Shown piece after piece: positions 15,634 to 56,614 of a stretch of 64,000 nt of DNA (position 1 is the first letter of the stretch; each line of letters opens with the position of its first letter). This DNA comes from Modestobacter sp. VKM Ac-2986. Its GTDB lineage: Bacteria; Actinomycetota; Actinomycetes; Mycobacteriales; Geodermatophilaceae. Below the pieces are notes generated by a model. That model ran no database searches. It saw only the letters and a list, made by a program, of their open reading frames with translations, and was not told the origin of the DNA. The position numbers and the translations under genes were made by a program. The stretch spans positions 248,001 to 312,000 of the forward strand of contig NZ_JAPVBH010000001.1 of the NCBI RefSeq assembly GCF_026967795.1. The letters are read 5' to 3'.

Positions 15634-15771
15634 TCAGCCGCCGGTGCTCTCCCGCACGGTGAGCGAGGGGGCCAGGGCCACCCGGGACGGTGGGGCGTGC
15701 CCGTTGCCCAGCACCCGGGGGAACAGCCGCACCGCCTCGGCGGCGACGTCGGCTTGCGGAACGGAGCCGCC
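15634..15771 (-). pseudogene. LacI-family regulator remnant (C-terminal end only)
   Basis: The minus strand reads VPQADVAAEAVRLFPRVL, a short linker, then APSLTVRESTGG and a stop at 15634-15636. This is the characteristic C-terminus of LacI/GalR repressors (the family pattern is a PV-A--A---L--L region followed by LP--LVVR-ST). Upstream of about 15765 the frame loses all resemblance and no start or DNA-binding domain is present. The rest of the gene has been deleted, with the deletion edge close to the flavin reductase promoter. Confidence 0.7.
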
Positions 15772-15812
15772 CCTCGCGGGACGGGCCCCGGGCCCGTGGT
15801 GGGATCAGCGGT

Positions 15813-16346
15813 GTGACTGGTGAACCGGACGTCCCCGCCCAGGTGATCGACCCGAGGGTGATGCGCGACGTGCTCGGGCACTTCGCCTCCGGGGTCACCG
15901 TCGTGACCGCGCTGGGCACCGAGGGCCCGGTGGGGTTCACCTGCCAGTCGTTCAGCTCGCTGTCGCTGGACCCGCCGCTGGTCACCTTCGCCCCGTCGCG
16001 CACCTCCACCACCTGGCCGCGGCTGCGCGAGGCGGGGCGCTTCTGCGTCAACGTGCTGTCGGAGGACCAGCGGGCCCTGTCGGGGCAGTTCGCCCGCTCG
16101 GGCACCGACAAGTTCGCCGGCGTCGACTGGGCGCCCAGCGCGCACGGCTCGCCGGTGCTCGAGGGGGTCGTGGCCTGGATCGACGGCGAGCTGTTCGCCG
16201 AGCACGACGGCGGTGACCACACGATCGTCGTGGCCCGCGTGCTCGACCTCGGTGCGGACGCCTCGCGCACGCCACTGCTGTTCCACCGCGGCGGCTACGG
16301 CCTCCAGGCGGCCCTGCTCAGCGGCGGGACCCCGGAGACGACCTGA
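15813..16346 (+). CDS. flavin reductase family protein (FMN-binding split barrel)
   Basis: A 177-residue protein with the flavin-reductase-like fold: FASGVTVVTALGTEGPVGFT and SFSSLSLDPPLVTF near residues 25-65, then RFCVNVLSEDQRALSGQFA near 82-100 and the C-terminal GGDHTIVVARVLDL. Members reduce FMN or FAD with NAD(P)H for a partner monooxygenase, but no oxygenase gene is adjacent. GTG 15813 is the first start giving a family-like N-terminus; an in-frame start at 15690 is upstream of any homology. It faces the LOV photoreceptor gene tail to tail across a shared terminator. Confidence 0.87.
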   Translation: MTGEPDVPAQVIDPRVMRDVLGHFASGVTVVTALGTEGPVGFTCQSFSSLSLDPPLVTFAPSRTSTTWPRLREAGRFCVNVLSEDQRALSGQFARSGTDKFAGVDWAPSAHGSPVLEGVVAWIDGELFAEHDGGDHTIVVARVLDLGADASRTPLLFHRGGYGLQAALLSGGTPETT

Positions 16347-16411: not shown

Positions 16412-18736
16412 TCAGGCGAACTGGACGGCGATGACCGCGACGTCGTCCCGGCGGTCGGGGTGCGGCCCCACCGCGTGCACGCACAGCTCGACCGGTGAGG
16501 CGTCCACCGGTGCGGTGCGCAGCCGGCTCACCAGCGAGGCGATCCCCTGGTCGAGGTCCTCGCCGGGCCGCTCGATGAGCCCGTCGGTGTAGGCGACCAG
16601 CGTCGAGCCGGGCGGGATGGCCACCTCGCGGGAGGCGCGCACGTGGGTGGCGTCGACGCCGATCAGCAGTCCGGTGATGCCGTCGAGCATCTCCACGCTG
16701 CCGTCGACGTGCCGCAGCAGCAGAGGCGGGTGGCCGGCGTTGGCCAGCTGCATCCGCCACGGCTCCCCCGGCCCGGTCGGGCGGACGGCGCGCCCGTAGA
16801 GCATGGTCGCCATCGGCGCGACGTGCAGGCCCTGCACCAGCCGGTCGACCCGGCCGAGGATCTCCCCGGTGTCGCCCTCGCCGGCGTCCCAGGCGCAGGC
16901 CCGCAGCAGCCCGCGCAGGTGGCCCATCGCCGCGGCCGCGGCGACGTCGTGACCGACCACGTCGCCGATCGCGATCCCCACGCTGCCGTCGGGCAGGTGC
17001 AGCATGTCGTAGAAGTCGCCGCCCACCTCCGCGCTGCTGGACGCGCTGAGGTACTGGGCCGCGGCGGTGACCCCGGGGATCGTCGGGAGCTCGGGCAGCA
17101 GCGACCGCTGCAGCGTCTCCGCGACGGTGTGCTCCTGCTGGTAGAGCCGCACGTTGTCCATCGCCATGGCCGCGCGCCGGGAGAGGTCGCGGGCCAGGTC
17201 GACGTCGTCGGCGCCGAAGCGTCGGGCCTGGGACTCGGCGACGAGGGTGAGCGCACCGAGTGTCCGGCGGCGGGCGACCAGCGGCACCGTGAGCTGCGAG
17301 GAGGTGCCGAGCTCGGCCATCAGGGCCCGCAGCGCCGGGTCCGGGGCGGCCGCGACCATGACCTCCGGCGGGATCTCCGGGAGGAGCACCGGCTCCTTGG
17401 AGGTGAGCACCTGGCGGATGGGCGCGGCCTCGGGCAGGTCGGCGACGCGCAGCGCGGCGAAGCGGCCCAGTTCCTCGTCCAGGCCGCGCCGGTGGGACGC
17501 GGAGGTGCCGGTGACCGCACCGTTCTCGTCGACCAGGGTGATGAACACCCAGTCGGCCAGCAGCGGCACGCACAGCGAGGCCAGCCGGCCGAGCAGGTCG
17601 TCCATGTCCAGGGTGGCGCTCAGCGTGCTGGTCGCCTCGGCCATCAGCGCCAGGCGGCTCTGCGCCCGCTCGGCCTGCACCCGTGCGGCGTCGGCGGCGG
17701 CGTGCGCCTGCTCGGCGTCCCGGCGGGCGGCGCGCTCGGCGGCGAAGGCGGCCCGCCGGTCGTCCTCCACGCGCACGCGCTCGGTGACGTCGGTCTGCAC
17801 GCCGACGAAGCTCACCAGCTCGCCCTCGCCGTCGAAGACCGGCGTGATCGACAGCTGGTTCCAGAAGGCCGTGCCGTCCTTGCGGTAGTTCAGCAGCGTC
17901 GTGGTGACCGGCTGCCGGCCCTGCAGCGACTTGCGCAGCTGGTCGACGCTGTCGGGGTCGGTCGCCGGGCCCTGCAGGAAGCGGCAGTTGCGCCCGACGC
18001 TCTCCTCGTAGGAGTAGCCGCTGATCCGGCTGAACGAGGGGTTGACCCAGACCAGCGGGTCGTCCTCCTGGCGCGGGTCGGTGATGGTGAAGGCGATGTC
18101 GGTGGCGATGACCGCGCGCTCGCGCAGGGCCTGCAGCTGGGCGTCGGGGTCGTCGGAGGCGCCGGGCTCGTCGATCTGGAGGAAGACCACCAGCGACAGC
18201 CGCTGCTCGCTGCCGTCCTGCGACAGCGGGAAGCCGGTCACCCACAGCACCTGGTCGGGCTCGGCCTCGGCGGCACGGCTCTCGTCGGAGCTGCGCCGAG
18301 GGGACAGCCGGACCGCCTCGCCGGCGACCGGGCGCCCGGCGGCGACCAGGGACAGCGGGCTGCCGGTGTCCTCCAGCGGGGCGCCGCCCAGGTCGGTCAG
18401 CCCGGCGGAGGCGCCCCAGGTGTCGACCGGGACCGGCAGCCCGATGTTGCCGGCGAGCTCGTTGGCGGCGGCGTTGGCGTAGGTGACGGTGCCGGCCGCC
18501 TGGTCGATCACCAGGACGGCGACCGGGACGTCGGAGAGCACGCCCGGCAGGGCCGCCTGCGCACCGCGCTCGGAGTCACTCCCCGTGACCACCGCCTCGG
18601 CAGCGCCCACGACGGACGCCTGCTGCGTGCGATCGGTCGGGTCGGTGCCCGCAGTCAGGGTGCTGGCCAGAGCGGCAGCGGCCTCGGGGGGGACCTGGCC
18701 AGGGACGTGGTCCCCCGGTCGTCTGTCGGACGGCAC
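16412..18736 (-). CDS. blue-light sensing LOV-GAF-PP2C (SpoIIE-type) phosphatase
   Basis: A 774-residue multidomain cytoplasmic protein. Order: an N-terminal PAS-like region (about 65-125, VAVLVIDQAAGTVTYANAAA), a LOV domain (about 205-325), a short coiled coil (325-365), a GAF domain (about 370-520) and a C-terminal PP2C/SpoIIE phosphatase (about 535-772). The LOV domain carries the full flavin-adduct motif GRNCRFLQG, with the photoactive cysteine at residue 251, plus NPSFSRISGYSYEE and NYRKDGTAFWNQLSITPV. The phosphatase has EVGGDFYDM, GDVVGHDVAAAAAMG, NAGHPPLLL, YTDGLIE and DDVAVIAVQF, so the metal-binding Asp and Gly residues are all there. Such enzymes dephosphorylate STAS anti-sigma antagonists to release stress sigma factors; no STAS or anti-sigma gene lies nearby. 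The light-controlled output is inferred from family knowledge. Confidence 0.93.
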   Translation of the reverse strand: MPSDRRPGDHVPGQVPPEAAAALASTLTAGTDPTDRTQQASVVGAAEAVVTGSDSERGAQAALPGVLSDVPVAVLVIDQAAGTVTYANAAANELAGNIGLPVPVDTWGASAGLTDLGGAPLEDTGSPLSLVAAGRPVAGEAVRLSPRRSSDESRAAEAEPDQVLWVTGFPLSQDGSEQRLSLVVFLQIDEPGASDDPDAQLQALRERAVIATDIAFTITDPRQEDDPLVWVNPSFSRISGYSYEESVGRNCRFLQGPATDPDSVDQLRKSLQGRQPVTTTLLNYRKDGTAFWNQLSITPVFDGEGELVSFVGVQTDVTERVRVEDDRRAAFAAERAARRDAEQAHAAADAARVQAERAQSRLALMAEATSTLSATLDMDDLLGRLASLCVPLLADWVFITLVDENGAVTGTSASHRRGLDEELGRFAALRVADLPEAAPIRQVLTSKEPVLLPEIPPEVMVAAAPDPALRALMAELGTSSQLTVPLVARRRTLGALTLVAESQARRFGADDVDLARDLSRRAAMAMDNVRLYQQEHTVAETLQRSLLPELPTIPGVTAAAQYLSASSSAEVGGDFYDMLHLPDGSVGIAIGDVVGHDVAAAAAMGHLRGLLRACAWDAGEGDTGEILGRVDRLVQGLHVAPMATMLYGRAVRPTGPGEPWRMQLANAGHPPLLLRHVDGSVEMLDGITGLLIGVDATHVRASREVAIPPGSTLVAYTDGLIERPGEDLDQGIASLVSRLRTAPVDASPVELCVHAVGPHPDRRDDVAVIAVQFA

Positions 18737-18886
18737 CGCACGAGCCTACCGAGGCGGTCCGTTGCGTACCACTGACCCCGCGCCTGAGCACGCCTTTCGG
18801 GTGGTGCGTCACCCGGCGCCGTGCGGGGTAGGGACGACCGACGCCGGCGCCGAGCGCCGGACGAGGACCACGAGAGAGGACGCGTC

Positions 18887-43679: not shown

Positions 43680-45386
43680 TCAGCCGTCGGCGGGGTCGGG
43701 ACCGACGGTCGGCGGGACGGCGCGGGGGCCGGCCTCGGCCGGGCGCCGGCGGTCCTGCCGGTGCAGCCGGATGGCGACCAGTGCGACGTCGTCGTCGGGG
43801 GTGGTGTGCACCAGCTCCTCGACCAGCCGGTCGCACAGCTCCTGCAGCGGGCGGTCGGCGAGCCGGGCGGCGGCGGCCCGGAGCAGGGCCATGCCGTCGT
43901 CGAGCACCGAGTCCCGGCGTTCGATGAGCCCGTCGGTGTAGAGCAGGACCGTCGTCCCCCGGTCCAGGCTGATCACCGACTCGCTGCGCTGCACCGTCGG
44001 GTCGACGCCGAGCATCAGGTCGCCGCGCCAGGTGGCGAGCTCGGCGACCGTGCCGTCGGGGTGGACGACCAGCGGCGGCGGGTGGCCGGCGTTGGCCCAC
44101 CGCATGCGGGTGATGCCGCGGTCGAGGTCGTCGGTGCTCTGCTCGAAGCGGGCCAGCGCCACCGTGGCGTAGGTGTGCAGCTGCAGCTGGGTCATCGCGG
44201 CGTCGAGCTGGGCCAGCAGCTGCGCCGGGCCGGCGTCGCCGGTGACGGCGATGCCCCGCAGCATGCTGCGGAGCTGGCCCATGGACGCCGCGGCCGCGGT
44301 GTCGTGGCCGACGACGTCGCCGATCACCAGCGTGGTCGCGCCGTCGGGCTGGACGAACGCGTCGTACCAGTCGCCGCCCACCCGGGCGGCCTGGGCGGCC
44401 GGCAGGTAGCGCACCACGATCTCGGCGTGGTCGGGCTCCGGGGGCGCGGTGAGCATGCTGCGCTGGAGCTCCTCGGCCAGCCGGCGCTGCTGCTCGTACA
44501 GCCGCGCGTTGTCCAGGGCCAGTCCGGCCCGGTCGGCCACCTCGGCGGCGGTGGCCAGGTCGGCCGGGTCGACCGTCCGGTGCCGGTCGTGGCCCAGGGT
44601 GAGCGCCCCGAGCACGTGGTCGGGGCCGCGGACGGGCAGCACGGTGAGCGTGTCCGGGCCGAGCAGCCGCAGCATCTCGCGGGCGTCCCCGGTGGCCACC
44701 GTGCCCAGGGCCGGGCCGGTCAGCTGGGTGCCGGACAGGGTCACCGGGGTGCTGGTGGTGACCGCGCGCAGCAGCGGCGCCGTCGCGGGGGAGGACTCGA
44801 GCACGGCAGTGGCGTACCGGCGCACCAGCGGGGTGCGGGCGGGGTCGGCGTGCACCCCGCCGGCGTCGGTCAGGCTGCCGTCCTCGCCGAGCAGGGTGAG
44901 CGTGGCCCAGCTGGCCAGCGCCGGCACCAGCAGCCGCGGGATGCGGCCCACGGCGGCCGGTGCGTCCAGGGTGCCCACCAGCTCGTCGCTCACCTGGGCC
45001 AGCAGGGCCAGCCGCTCGACGGCCGCCCGGCGGGCGGTGATCTCGGAGAAGTACAGCCAGAGCCCCTGGGCGGTGGGCACCGCCTGCACCTCGTGCCACT
45101 GGTTCAACGGCTCGGGGTAGAACGCCTCCACCGTCTGCGGCTGCCGGGTGGAGACGGCCCGGTGGTACGCCCGGCCGAACTCGCTGTCGACGTTGGCCGG
45201 GAAGGCCTCCCAGTACGACCGGCCCACCAGCCCCTCCCGTGGGACGGCGAGCATCGACTCCGCCGCGCGGTTGACGAACCGGATCGTCCACTCCGTGTCC
45301 AGCTCGACGAGGCCGATGGGCATCGTCTCCAGGGTCTGGGCGTCGGTGTCCGTGCTCTCGTCGTCCGTCCGCCACCAGCGGGCCAT
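43680..45386 (-). CDS. PAS-GAF-PP2C (SpoIIE-type) phosphatase
   Basis: A 568-residue cytoplasmic protein: PAS (about 18-120, PIGLVELDTEWTIRFVNRAAE), GAF (about 140-300) and PP2C/SpoIIE domain (about 330-550). The PP2C part has RVGGDWYDAF, GDVVGHDTAAAASMGQLR, NAGHPPPLVV, LYTDGLIERRD and DDDVALVAIRLH, all metal-binding residues intact. The PAS has no LOV cysteine motif. AGAGG precedes the ATG. It is divergent from an ArsR regulator with an inverted repeat between them, so ArsR may control it. The likely target is a phosphorylated STAS protein not encoded here. Confidence 0.9.
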   Translation of the reverse strand: MARWWRTDDESTDTDAQTLETMPIGLVELDTEWTIRFVNRAAESMLAVPREGLVGRSYWEAFPANVDSEFGRAYHRAVSTRQPQTVEAFYPEPLNQWHEVQAVPTAQGLWLYFSEITARRAAVERLALLAQVSDELVGTLDAPAAVGRIPRLLVPALASWATLTLLGEDGSLTDAGGVHADPARTPLVRRYATAVLESSPATAPLLRAVTTSTPVTLSGTQLTGPALGTVATGDAREMLRLLGPDTLTVLPVRGPDHVLGALTLGHDRHRTVDPADLATAAEVADRAGLALDNARLYEQQRRLAEELQRSMLTAPPEPDHAEIVVRYLPAAQAARVGGDWYDAFVQPDGATTLVIGDVVGHDTAAAASMGQLRSMLRGIAVTGDAGPAQLLAQLDAAMTQLQLHTYATVALARFEQSTDDLDRGITRMRWANAGHPPPLVVHPDGTVAELATWRGDLMLGVDPTVQRSESVISLDRGTTVLLYTDGLIERRDSVLDDGMALLRAAAARLADRPLQELCDRLVEELVHTTPDDDVALVAIRLHRQDRRRPAEAGPRAVPPTVGPDPADG

Positions 45387-54892: not shown

Positions 54893-56614
54893 ATGGTGCA
54901 GAGTGTCCTGATGACCGTCACCGGGGCGCCCGCGCCCGCCGACCTGCTCGTGCGGGCGGTGCAGGGGATGGCGCGTCCGCTCTTCGTGCTCGACGACGCC
55001 TGGCGGTTCAGCTACATCAACCCCTCCGGCGCCGCCCTGCTGGGCCGCACGGTCGCGGAGCTGGTCGGCCGGGTCGTGTGGGAGGAGTTCCCCGAGGCCC
55101 GGGGCGGCGACTTCGAGCGCCACTACCGGCACGTCGCCGAGACCGGCGAGCCCGCCGGGTTCGAGGCCTGGTTCGCCCCGCTCGGGGTGCTGTTCCAGGT
55201 CGACGCCTTCCGCACCGACGGCGGCCTGGTCGTCACCTACGACGACGTCACCGCGCGTCGGCGGGCCGAGCAGGCCCGCGAGGAGGCCGCCGCCGCCCGC
55301 GAGGTCGAGGCCGCGCACGCCGCCGAGGCCGCGGCCGAGGCGGCGCTGGCCGGCCGGCACCTGATGCTGCTGGGCGACATCAGCCAGGCGATGACCTCCA
55401 CCCTGGACGTCGAGGAGGCGGTGCACCGCTTCGCCGACCGGGTGGTGCCCACCCTCGCCGACTGGTGCCTGGTCTCCGTGGTCGAGGACGGCGTGCGCCG
55501 CGACATCGGCCGCGCCCACAGCGACCCCGCCCGGCAGGCCGCCGTCGACCGCTACGCCGACCTGCGGGTGCGCACCAACCGGCCCAACGCCCCGGTGCCG
55601 ACCTCGCTGTGCGACGGCACGCCCGTGGTCATCCAGCAGCTCACCGACGAGGTGATGACGACGATGGTCGGCGACGCGCGGGCGCTCGAGGCGGTCCGGG
55701 CGCTGCAGCCCAGCGCGGTCGCGGTGTACCCGCTCATCGCCCGCGAGGAGCTCTTCGGCGCGCTCACCCTGGTCAACGGCCCCGACCGCGGCCCGTTCAC
55801 CGACCTGGAGCTGAGCACCGCCGCCGTCGCCTCCTTCCGCGCGGCGCTGGCGCTGGACAACGCCCGGCTGGCCGGTGCGCAGGTGCGGGTGGCCGAGCGG
55901 CTGCAGCGCAGCCTGCTGTCCGAGCCGGTGCAGCCCGACCAGTTGGAGATCGCCGTCCGCTACCGGCCGGCGACCAAGGGCATCGCCATCGGTGGCGACT
56001 GGTACGACGCCTTCCAGCAGCCCGACGGCGACACCGTGCTGGTCATCGGCGACGTGGTCGGCCACGACCTCGAGGCCGCCGCCACGATGGGCCAGCTGAA
56101 GACGACGGTCCGGGCGATCGCCTACGACCGGCAGGAGCGCCCCGCGCAGGTCCTCGGCCGCGCCGACCGGGCCGTCGCCGGGCTGGGCGTCGCGACGCTG
56201 GCCACCGCGCTGGTCGGCCGGGTCGGGTCCGCCGCCGACCGGGCGGGCGGGCGCCGGCTGCGCTGGGCCACCGCGGGCCACCCCGTGCCGATGCTGCTGC
56301 AGCCCGACGGCACGGTCGTCGAGCTCGACGCGCCCGTCGGCCCGCCGCTGGGCACCGACTGGCCGGGGGAGCGCGCCGACGGCGTCGTCGACCTGCTGCC
56401 GGGGTCGACGCTGCTGCTGTTCACCGACGGGCTGTTCGAGCGCCGCACCGAGGACCTGGACACCGGGCGGGCCCGGCTGCGGGCCGCCGTCGCCGCGCTG
56501 GCCGGGGAGCCGCTGCCGGACCTGTGCGACGGCCTGCTCGCCGAGCTGCTCGCCCAGGGCGCGGAGGACGACGTGGCGCTGCTGGCCGTCCGCGTGCACC
56601 CCGGAGGGCGCTGA
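54893..56614 (+). CDS. PAS-GAF-PP2C (SpoIIE-type) phosphatase
   Basis: A 573-residue cytoplasmic protein: PAS (about 20-120; RPLFVLDDAWRFSYINPSGAALLG), Ala-rich coiled coil (121-155), GAF (about 158-325) and PP2C (about 345-570; IAIGGDWYDAF, GDVVGHDLEAAATMGQLK, TAGHPVPMLLQ, FTDGLFERR, AEDDVALLAVRVH). In the HP motif the usual NAGHP reads TAGHP. The PAS lacks a LOV cysteine. ATG 54893 is used; ATG 54911 is an alternative. It is the third enzyme of this class in the window. Confidence 0.9.
   Translation: MVQSVLMTVTGAPAPADLLVRAVQGMARPLFVLDDAWRFSYINPSGAALLGRTVAELVGRVVWEEFPEARGGDFERHYRHVAETGEPAGFEAWFAPLGVLFQVDAFRTDGGLVVTYDDVTARRRAEQAREEAAAAREVEAAHAAEAAAEAALAGRHLMLLGDISQAMTSTLDVEEAVHRFADRVVPTLADWCLVSVVEDGVRRDIGRAHSDPARQAAVDRYADLRVRTNRPNAPVPTSLCDGTPVVIQQLTDEVMTTMVGDARALEAVRALQPSAVAVYPLIAREELFGALTLVNGPDRGPFTDLELSTAAVASFRAALALDNARLAGAQVRVAERLQRSLLSEPVQPDQLEIAVRYRPATKGIAIGGDWYDAFQQPDGDTVLVIGDVVGHDLEAAATMGQLKTTVRAIAYDRQERPAQVLGRADRAVAGLGVATLATALVGRVGSAADRAGGRRLRWATAGHPVPMLLQPDGTVVELDAPVGPPLGTDWPGERADGVVDLLPGSTLLLFTDGLFERRTEDLDTGRARLRAAVAALAGEPLPDLCDGLLAELLAQGAEDDVALLAVRVHPGGR

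Follow-up and report, generated by a model that had tools for sequence, protein, structure and literature searches.

The DNA analysed here (the window) is a 64,000-nucleotide stretch of the genome of Modestobacter sp. VKM Ac-2986 (Geodermatophilaceae), a member of a bacterial group known from soil and stone. On its minus strand, at 16412..18736, lies a gene predicted to encode a photoreceptor phosphatase of 774 amino acids with a GTG start codon and the domain order PAS-LOV-GAF-PP2C (all parts of this gene are given in window coordinates of the minus strand). An initial annotation, made from the sequence alone, had described the product as a blue-light LOV receptor joined through a GAF domain to an intact SpoIIE-type phosphatase, with an extra PAS domain in front of the LOV domain, and this architecture was recovered. 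In Pfam searches the protein matched SpoIIE (E 6.7e-37, residues 582-773), PAS_9 (E 2.4e-23, 224-319), GAF_2 (E 1.8e-10, 376-527) and, weakly, PAS_8 (E 1.6e-8, best stretch 68-103), and no match to STAS or HATPase_c_2 was obtained at E up to 1. The best NCBIfam matches to the central domain are LOV proteins and fall in residues 189-330 (YtvA_fam, E 7.5e-43; BluLightHisKinLov, E 8e-40); they stay far under the whole-protein cut-offs because one domain alone matches.

An AlphaFold2 model of the protein was built from a 35-sequence alignment, from which L173, L174 and L186 were left out, the first two having stop codons inside the given range. The model reached a mean predicted local distance difference test score (pLDDT) of 82.8 and a predicted template modelling score (pTM) of only 0.48, so that the relative placement of the domains should not be trusted. 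It shows a PAS-like region with alpha/beta elements at 73-187, the LOV domain at 214-316, a helix at 318-373, the GAF domain at 378 to about 505, a 38-residue helix at 509-546 and the PP2C domain at 556-773, and residues 1-65 are modelled at pLDDT below 50. Together with the profile matches this places the N-terminal PAS-like domain at residues of about 66-190 (18167..18541), the LOV domain at about 205-325 (17762..18124), the LOV-to-GAF linker as a 56-residue helix at 318-373 (17618..17785), the GAF domain at 376-527 (17156..17611), the GAF-to-PP2C linker helix at 509-546 (17099..17212) and the PP2C/SpoIIE-type phosphatase domain at 556-774 (16415..17071).

The LOV domain contains the adduct motif GRNCRFLQG with the predicted flavin-cysteinyl adduct cysteine C251 (codon 17984..17986). 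The residues N250, R252, Q255, N283, N293 and Q314, which in the LOV family contact flavin mononucleotide (FMN), are all present; C251, Q255 and Q314 occupy the alignment positions of C85, Q89 and Q148 in the PDB entries of the CagFbFP LOV domain. The modelled LOV fold matches LOV crystal structures; the CagFbFP entries superpose on it with a root-mean-square deviation of 0.8-0.9 across about 105 columns. In an alignment of 35 homologs, with rows chosen by the range of the match irrespective of motif, N250, C251, Q255, N283, N293 and Q314 are invariant (35/35) and R252 is kept in at least 90%. The test proposed with the initial annotation, a LOV profile search combined with inspection of the FMN-contact residues, thus returned LOV matches and a complete site, and the loss of conserved contact Asn/Gln residues, which it had named as evidence to the contrary, was not seen in these homologs. 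The same seven residues are invariant among 32 orthologs and paralogs, where the frames were chosen mainly by the CRFLQ motif and N250, N283, N293 and Q314 provide the real test. A wider set of 79 rows shows C251 and Q314 in 77 rows each and N283 and N293 in 78 each. This set combines three paralogs of the own genome with 76 sequences from named genomes that were selected with loose LOV and GGD/GAD patterns; from the 80 loci L169, L171, L187 (which reads NCRLLQG) and L201 were omitted, as they offer no single frame with both motifs. The two rows without the LOV cysteine, L183 and L200, both sit on long branches of the tree of this set. From the intact site, flavin binding and light gating of the protein are predicted.

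The phosphatase domain appears equally intact. D592 is kept in 79/79 and D718, D764 and D765 in 77/79 rows of the wider set, and in a further set of 109 homologs the numbers are 109/109 and 108/109; these aspartates correspond to the metal site of the PP2C family. D574 is conserved as well, yet it is part of the selecting pattern and therefore provides no test. The best PDB fold match of the model is 3ke6, the RsbU-RsbW domains of Rv1364c, whereas the PP2C part alone gave no PDB match by phmmer at E 0.001. Phosphatase activity is predicted from the conserved aspartates, and these also speak against a non-catalytic adaptor function of the RssB kind, for which a weak NCBIfam match to the RssB model NF045505.1 (E 1.9e-5) could be quoted and which we consider very improbable.

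The length of the linker between the LOV and GAF domains follows a simple rule. It was counted from the LOV end at D316 to the GAF start at L362 in the 109 homologs, which are mutually less than 95% identical; the patterns used to select them fix N250, R252 and Q255, permit C, S or A at position 251 and require GGD, so that N250, C251, R252, Q255 and D574 are not tested by this set, and the cysteine-less L183 and L200 are outside it. In 108/109 homologs the linker differs from that of the window protein by a multiple of seven residues (+7, n=33; -21, n=28; 0, n=18; -14, n=17; -7, n=8; +14, n=2; +21, n=1; -35, n=1), the sole exception being paralog C of the own genome (-11). When the linker columns are excluded from tree building, at least 20 changes are required to explain the lengths, but only one to explain their remainders modulo 7. 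In the 79-row set 76 of the 78 measurable rows fit the rule (the linker of L183 is not measurable), with paralog C and L200 (-22) as exceptions. As a control, 18 other segments between conserved columns were counted, and there multiples of seven account for 3 of the 38 non-zero length classes. The segment connecting the N-terminal PAS with the LOV domain varies freely in length, and the GAF-to-PP2C stretch 527-547 has one length in 109/109 homologs. Length steps of seven are expected of a coiled coil that must keep its register, and average hydropathy in the linker marks a single heptad position as apolar (+1.93), with negative values at the remaining six. Linker lengths that step by heptads are already published for a number of LOV and phytochrome receptor families, and a single residue added in the LOV kinase YF1 inverts its light response (PMC6798134). 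The natural series of linkers in seven-residue steps offers material for studying and engineering light-controlled phosphatases.

The gene is widespread in the group. An ortholog was found in 21/23 genomes of the genus (absent from G003 and G004), with 68-85% identity over most of the length and a 75% fragment in G022, and in 7 of the 11 other Geodermatophilaceae genera sampled; no ortholog was found in g6, g8, g10 and g12, where some genomes are incomplete. Among the best 80 of 255 relatives, the closest named loci are those of Modestobacter, and more distant ones with about 40-47% identity occur in Kineococcus, Pseudonocardia and Cellulomonas. The own genome (4.19 Mb) encodes five proteins with the LOV motif. 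Besides the window protein (A) two of them are LOV-GAF-SpoIIE paralogs, B at C1:70k and C at C12:109k, with an N-terminal region similar to that of A. Paralog C is divergent from an RsbW-like gene (L051:2747-3476). The remaining two are EAL-DICT-LOV proteins, one of them with GGDEF (L052:3574-5457, L053:2699-4942), possibly light-linked enzymes of cyclic di-GMP metabolism.

The initial annotation had noted that no STAS or anti-sigma partner is adjacent to the gene. A whole-genome search indeed found no STAS match within the window, and the sole RsbW-type match over the cut-off that touches it is a SpoIIE-RsbW fusion across the left edge (L117:1201-3573). STAS, RsbW-like and sigma genes were sought around LOV-phosphatases elsewhere, with models from proteins of the own genome, at 100 loci (80 named and 20 orthologous). 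A STAS-RsbW-sigma trio was found at five of them, all from Pseudonocardiaceae (L184, L187, L188, L193 and L199), and at four others (L167, L170, L173 and L189) an RsbW-like gene follows directly downstream without a sigma gene, two of these having a STAS gene farther away. Among 249 Pseudonocardiaceae genomes at least 28 carry a LOV-phosphatase at E 1e-110, a lower bound since five candidates were scored per genome. The trio is divergent from the LOV-phosphatase gene in 10 of these 28, namely in 9/9 genomes of genus g65, where G523 and G541 have LOV-phosphatases identical over the query, and in 1/1 of g106. As three of the ten are L188, L199 and L193, the addition of L184 and L187 brings the genomes with the divergent trio to 12. 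No trio was found at eighteen further loci, 7 of them from Geodermatophilaceae and 11 from other families, with a short flank on one side in several cases; an RsbW-like gene stands beside two of them, L274 (same contig as L170) and L275.

The own genome has one sigma factor of the SigBFG class over the family cut-off (C9:609276-609947). An RsbW-like gene (C9:608521-608823) lies directly before it and a STAS gene (C9:606746-607027) about 2 kb before it; between these two an unrelated gene is encoded on the opposite strand. In 76 genomes of the family exactly one SigBFG match at E 1e-60 was found in 72, three in two and none in two, and the nine of the ten Pseudonocardiaceae trio genomes that were searched (all but G541) have 2-8 such matches each. 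At four of the trio loci (L184, L187, L188 and L193) the sigma factor is 61-68% identical to the own SigBFG sigma, with the next own sigma at about 30% at most, the RsbW protein is 50-52% identical to that of the cluster with no other match at 1e-4, and the STAS protein is 49-53% identical to the STAS of the cluster. In a tree of 40 sigma rows, with frames taken by best match to the own sigma, the LOV-adjacent and the Geodermatophilaceae sigmas form one clade (support 100/98). It excludes 18 of 19 other Pseudonocardiaceae SigBFG copies, the exception being the second copy of G422; 19 of the 22 other copies were used and three of G523 were omitted. The LOV-phosphatases of Pseudonocardiaceae were placed by a quick tree as sister of the clade that holds A and B (Shimodaira-Hasegawa approximate likelihood ratio test 99), and the link to the trio therefore belongs to the common lineage of A and B and not to A alone. 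The target, which the initial annotation had left undefined, is in this way narrowed to a likely STAS-RsbW-sigma module by the loci of relatives and the single own SigBFG sigma.

Taken together, we favour, with a probability of about 0.6, a serine phosphatase that is gated by blue light and feeds into the partner switch of an alternative sigma factor, most likely the own SigBFG-class sigma. Judging from the intact site, blue light would make the flavin of the LOV domain form an adduct with C251. The signal would leave the domain through the long modelled helix, which may form a coiled coil with its counterpart in a dimer, and would pass the GAF domain and the second helix of fixed length before altering the packing of two PP2C domains and thereby setting their activity, a step suggested by published work on RsbU and RsbP. 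The N-terminal PAS and the GAF domain probably supply a second input. The phosphatase would then dephosphorylate an anti-anti-sigma factor of the STAS type, and the freed STAS protein would take an RsbW-like anti-sigma factor off its sigma factor, with the sigma G000:C9:609276-609947 and its RsbW-like and STAS genes as the most likely target. A more specific version, in which the photoreceptor itself is the RsbU-type phosphatase of the SigF general stress switch in these actinobacteria, acting in one enzymatic step without a stressosome, and in which the LOV-to-GAF coil is restricted to heptad steps since the direction of the light response depends on its rotational register, is put forward tentatively, as somewhat short of an even chance.

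Several observations weigh against this assignment. In Modestobacter itself the LOV-phosphatase gene lies far from the sigma cluster, and beside the LOV-phosphatase of 18 of the 28 Pseudonocardiaceae genomes (15 of g77, 2 of g89 and 1 of g94) the trio was not found; 17 of these have more than 5 kb of 5' flank, and for L298 the available 785 bases are too little to judge. The link to the trio may rest on one or two evolutionary rearrangement events. At the four compared loci the second-best own STAS protein is close behind that of the cluster, with 40-47% identity. The RsbW-like protein of the only SigBFG cluster is without the usual Asn of the N-box (L112:4803-5417), which makes it a doubtful candidate for the kinase that would oppose the phosphatase; this Asn is likewise absent from the anti-sigma-F factor RsbW of PDB 8ih8. 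As to the linker, the heptad rule is broken twice, by paralog C and by the cysteine-less L200, and its hydropathy peaks at a period of 3.67 residues (0.202) and not at 3.5 (0.139), so that the coil may deviate from a simple 7/2 pattern. The heptad steps could in part stem from an older duplication of 21-bp units; no 21-bp tandem array was found in the linker DNA of the window gene.

Finally, the own genome holds 21 SpoIIE matches, three of them inside the window, and eight STAS matches, four of which have the phospho-site Ser by eye, so that other substrates are possible. The same light-gated phosphatase might thus act on another STAS protein and its partner switch, such as the STAS/RsbW-like pair at C1:119.8-120.6k. 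This is favoured by the B-type LOV-phosphatases of the 'Modestobacter sp. Leaf380' record and of a Klenkia metagenome-assembled genome, which are directly followed by an RsbW-like gene whose product is 76% identical over 90 residues to the one at C1:120k, and by the position of paralog C next to an RsbW-like gene. However, these links concern other paralogs and the window protein has no such neighbour, and the sister clade of A and B is tied to the SigF-like cluster only; we regard a different STAS substrate as rather unlikely, though it is the alternative to be taken most seriously. LOV domains can also report redox state through their flavin, and in vivo the domain might sense redox, flavin level or temperature, or light might turn the phosphatase off. 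A flavin reductase-like gene (15690-16346, plus strand; Pfam Flavin_Reduct, E 3.4e-46) is convergent with the LOV gene, and such a gene is found on the convergent side in 19/20 loci, and in 17 of these its centre is no more than 1.6 kb away; it is farther off in L087 and L090, and none was found in L098. This link is weak because several other neighbours of the LOV-phosphatase gene are syntenic too, and a pure redox sensor would not need the adduct cysteine that is kept in 77/79 and 35/35 homologs. We consider such a sensor, or an inverted response, improbable.

The best-known case of light acting on the general stress response is YtvA of Bacillus, a LOV-STAS protein in the SigB stressosome. 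As proposed here for the window protein, a LOV sensor there feeds a STAS/RsbW/sigma partner switch, but YtvA is itself the STAS protein and acts upstream, whereas the window protein carries the sensor on the phosphatase; it does not reach the YtvA_fam cut-off (146.8 against 250 bits) and lacks the LOV-STAS architecture. A review of prokaryotic blue-light receptors lists SpoIIE phosphatases as one of the functions typically found attached to LOV and BLUF domains (PMC4844311), and the window protein therefore counts as a further case of a known combination. The output is the same as in those proteins, and the excerpted account does not contain the target, the linker rule or a PAS-LOV-GAF-PP2C protein. 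For RsbU, PP2C dimerisation driven by the linker has been reported and proposed as general (PMC12143880). Both Bacillus RsbP and RsbU combine, like the window protein, a sensor or partner-binding domain with a helical linker and PP2C, RsbP through PAS and RsbQ and RsbU through RsbT, in place of which the window protein has a LOV sensor (PMC12143880). The modelled helices 318-373 and 509-546 and the heptad steps would fit a linker leading from a dimeric sensor into PP2C. Rv1364c of Mycobacterium tuberculosis carries RsbW and STAS domains on the same chain, with no LOV domain described in the portion of the text consulted (PMC12143880), whereas the window protein has neither an RsbW nor a STAS domain fused. 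Among the top fold matches of the model is also 6hmj, the RNA-binding LOV receptor PAL of Nakamurella, with PAS and LOV on one chain; it differs in its RNA-binding output from the PP2C output of the window protein. A literature search found no LOV-PP2C protein of Geodermatophilaceae or Pseudonocardia; it was not directed specifically at Modestobacter or at heptad steps in LOV phosphatases. To the known systems are added a likely SigF target, the distribution within Geodermatophilaceae and, for LOV phosphatases, the heptad rule, none of which that search showed to be known. The predicted one-protein route from light to phosphatase, kept in 21/23 genomes of the genus and tied to a sigma cluster in relatives, would constitute a directly testable light input to SigF.

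The LOV-phosphatase gene is apparently a single-gene unit, both flanking neighbours being on the other strand. Six nucleotides before the GTG lies TAGGCT (18743..18748), the probable -10 box of a leaderless promoter, its sigma class being inferred. A box TAnnnT stands 6-7 nucleotides before the GTG in 16/16 aligned upstream regions, which supports this start codon. In the same promoter region GTGGTACGCAAC (18761..18772) was recognised by eye as a conserved element, with TGGTRCRCAA kept in 14/16 upstream regions. A promoter of the SigF type (consensus GTTT..GGGTA) was considered and rejected, since the conserved box is TAnnnT and L056, L058-L061 and others do not share the GGTA seen in the window.

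Elsewhere in the window two more PAS-GAF-SpoIIE phosphatases are encoded (43680-45386, minus strand; 54893-56614, plus strand), together with a CheA/CheW pair. In the tree of the 79-row set several database labels are at odds with the position of the sequence: the 'Bacillus' record L158 falls inside Blastococcus, 'Modestobacter sp. Leaf380' (L170/L192) among Klenkia and the 'Streptomyces' record L194 beside Quadrisphaera, and L202 and L203 are very similar proteins in Sphaerisporangium and Cellulosimicrobium records. These labels likely reflect mislabelling or contamination.

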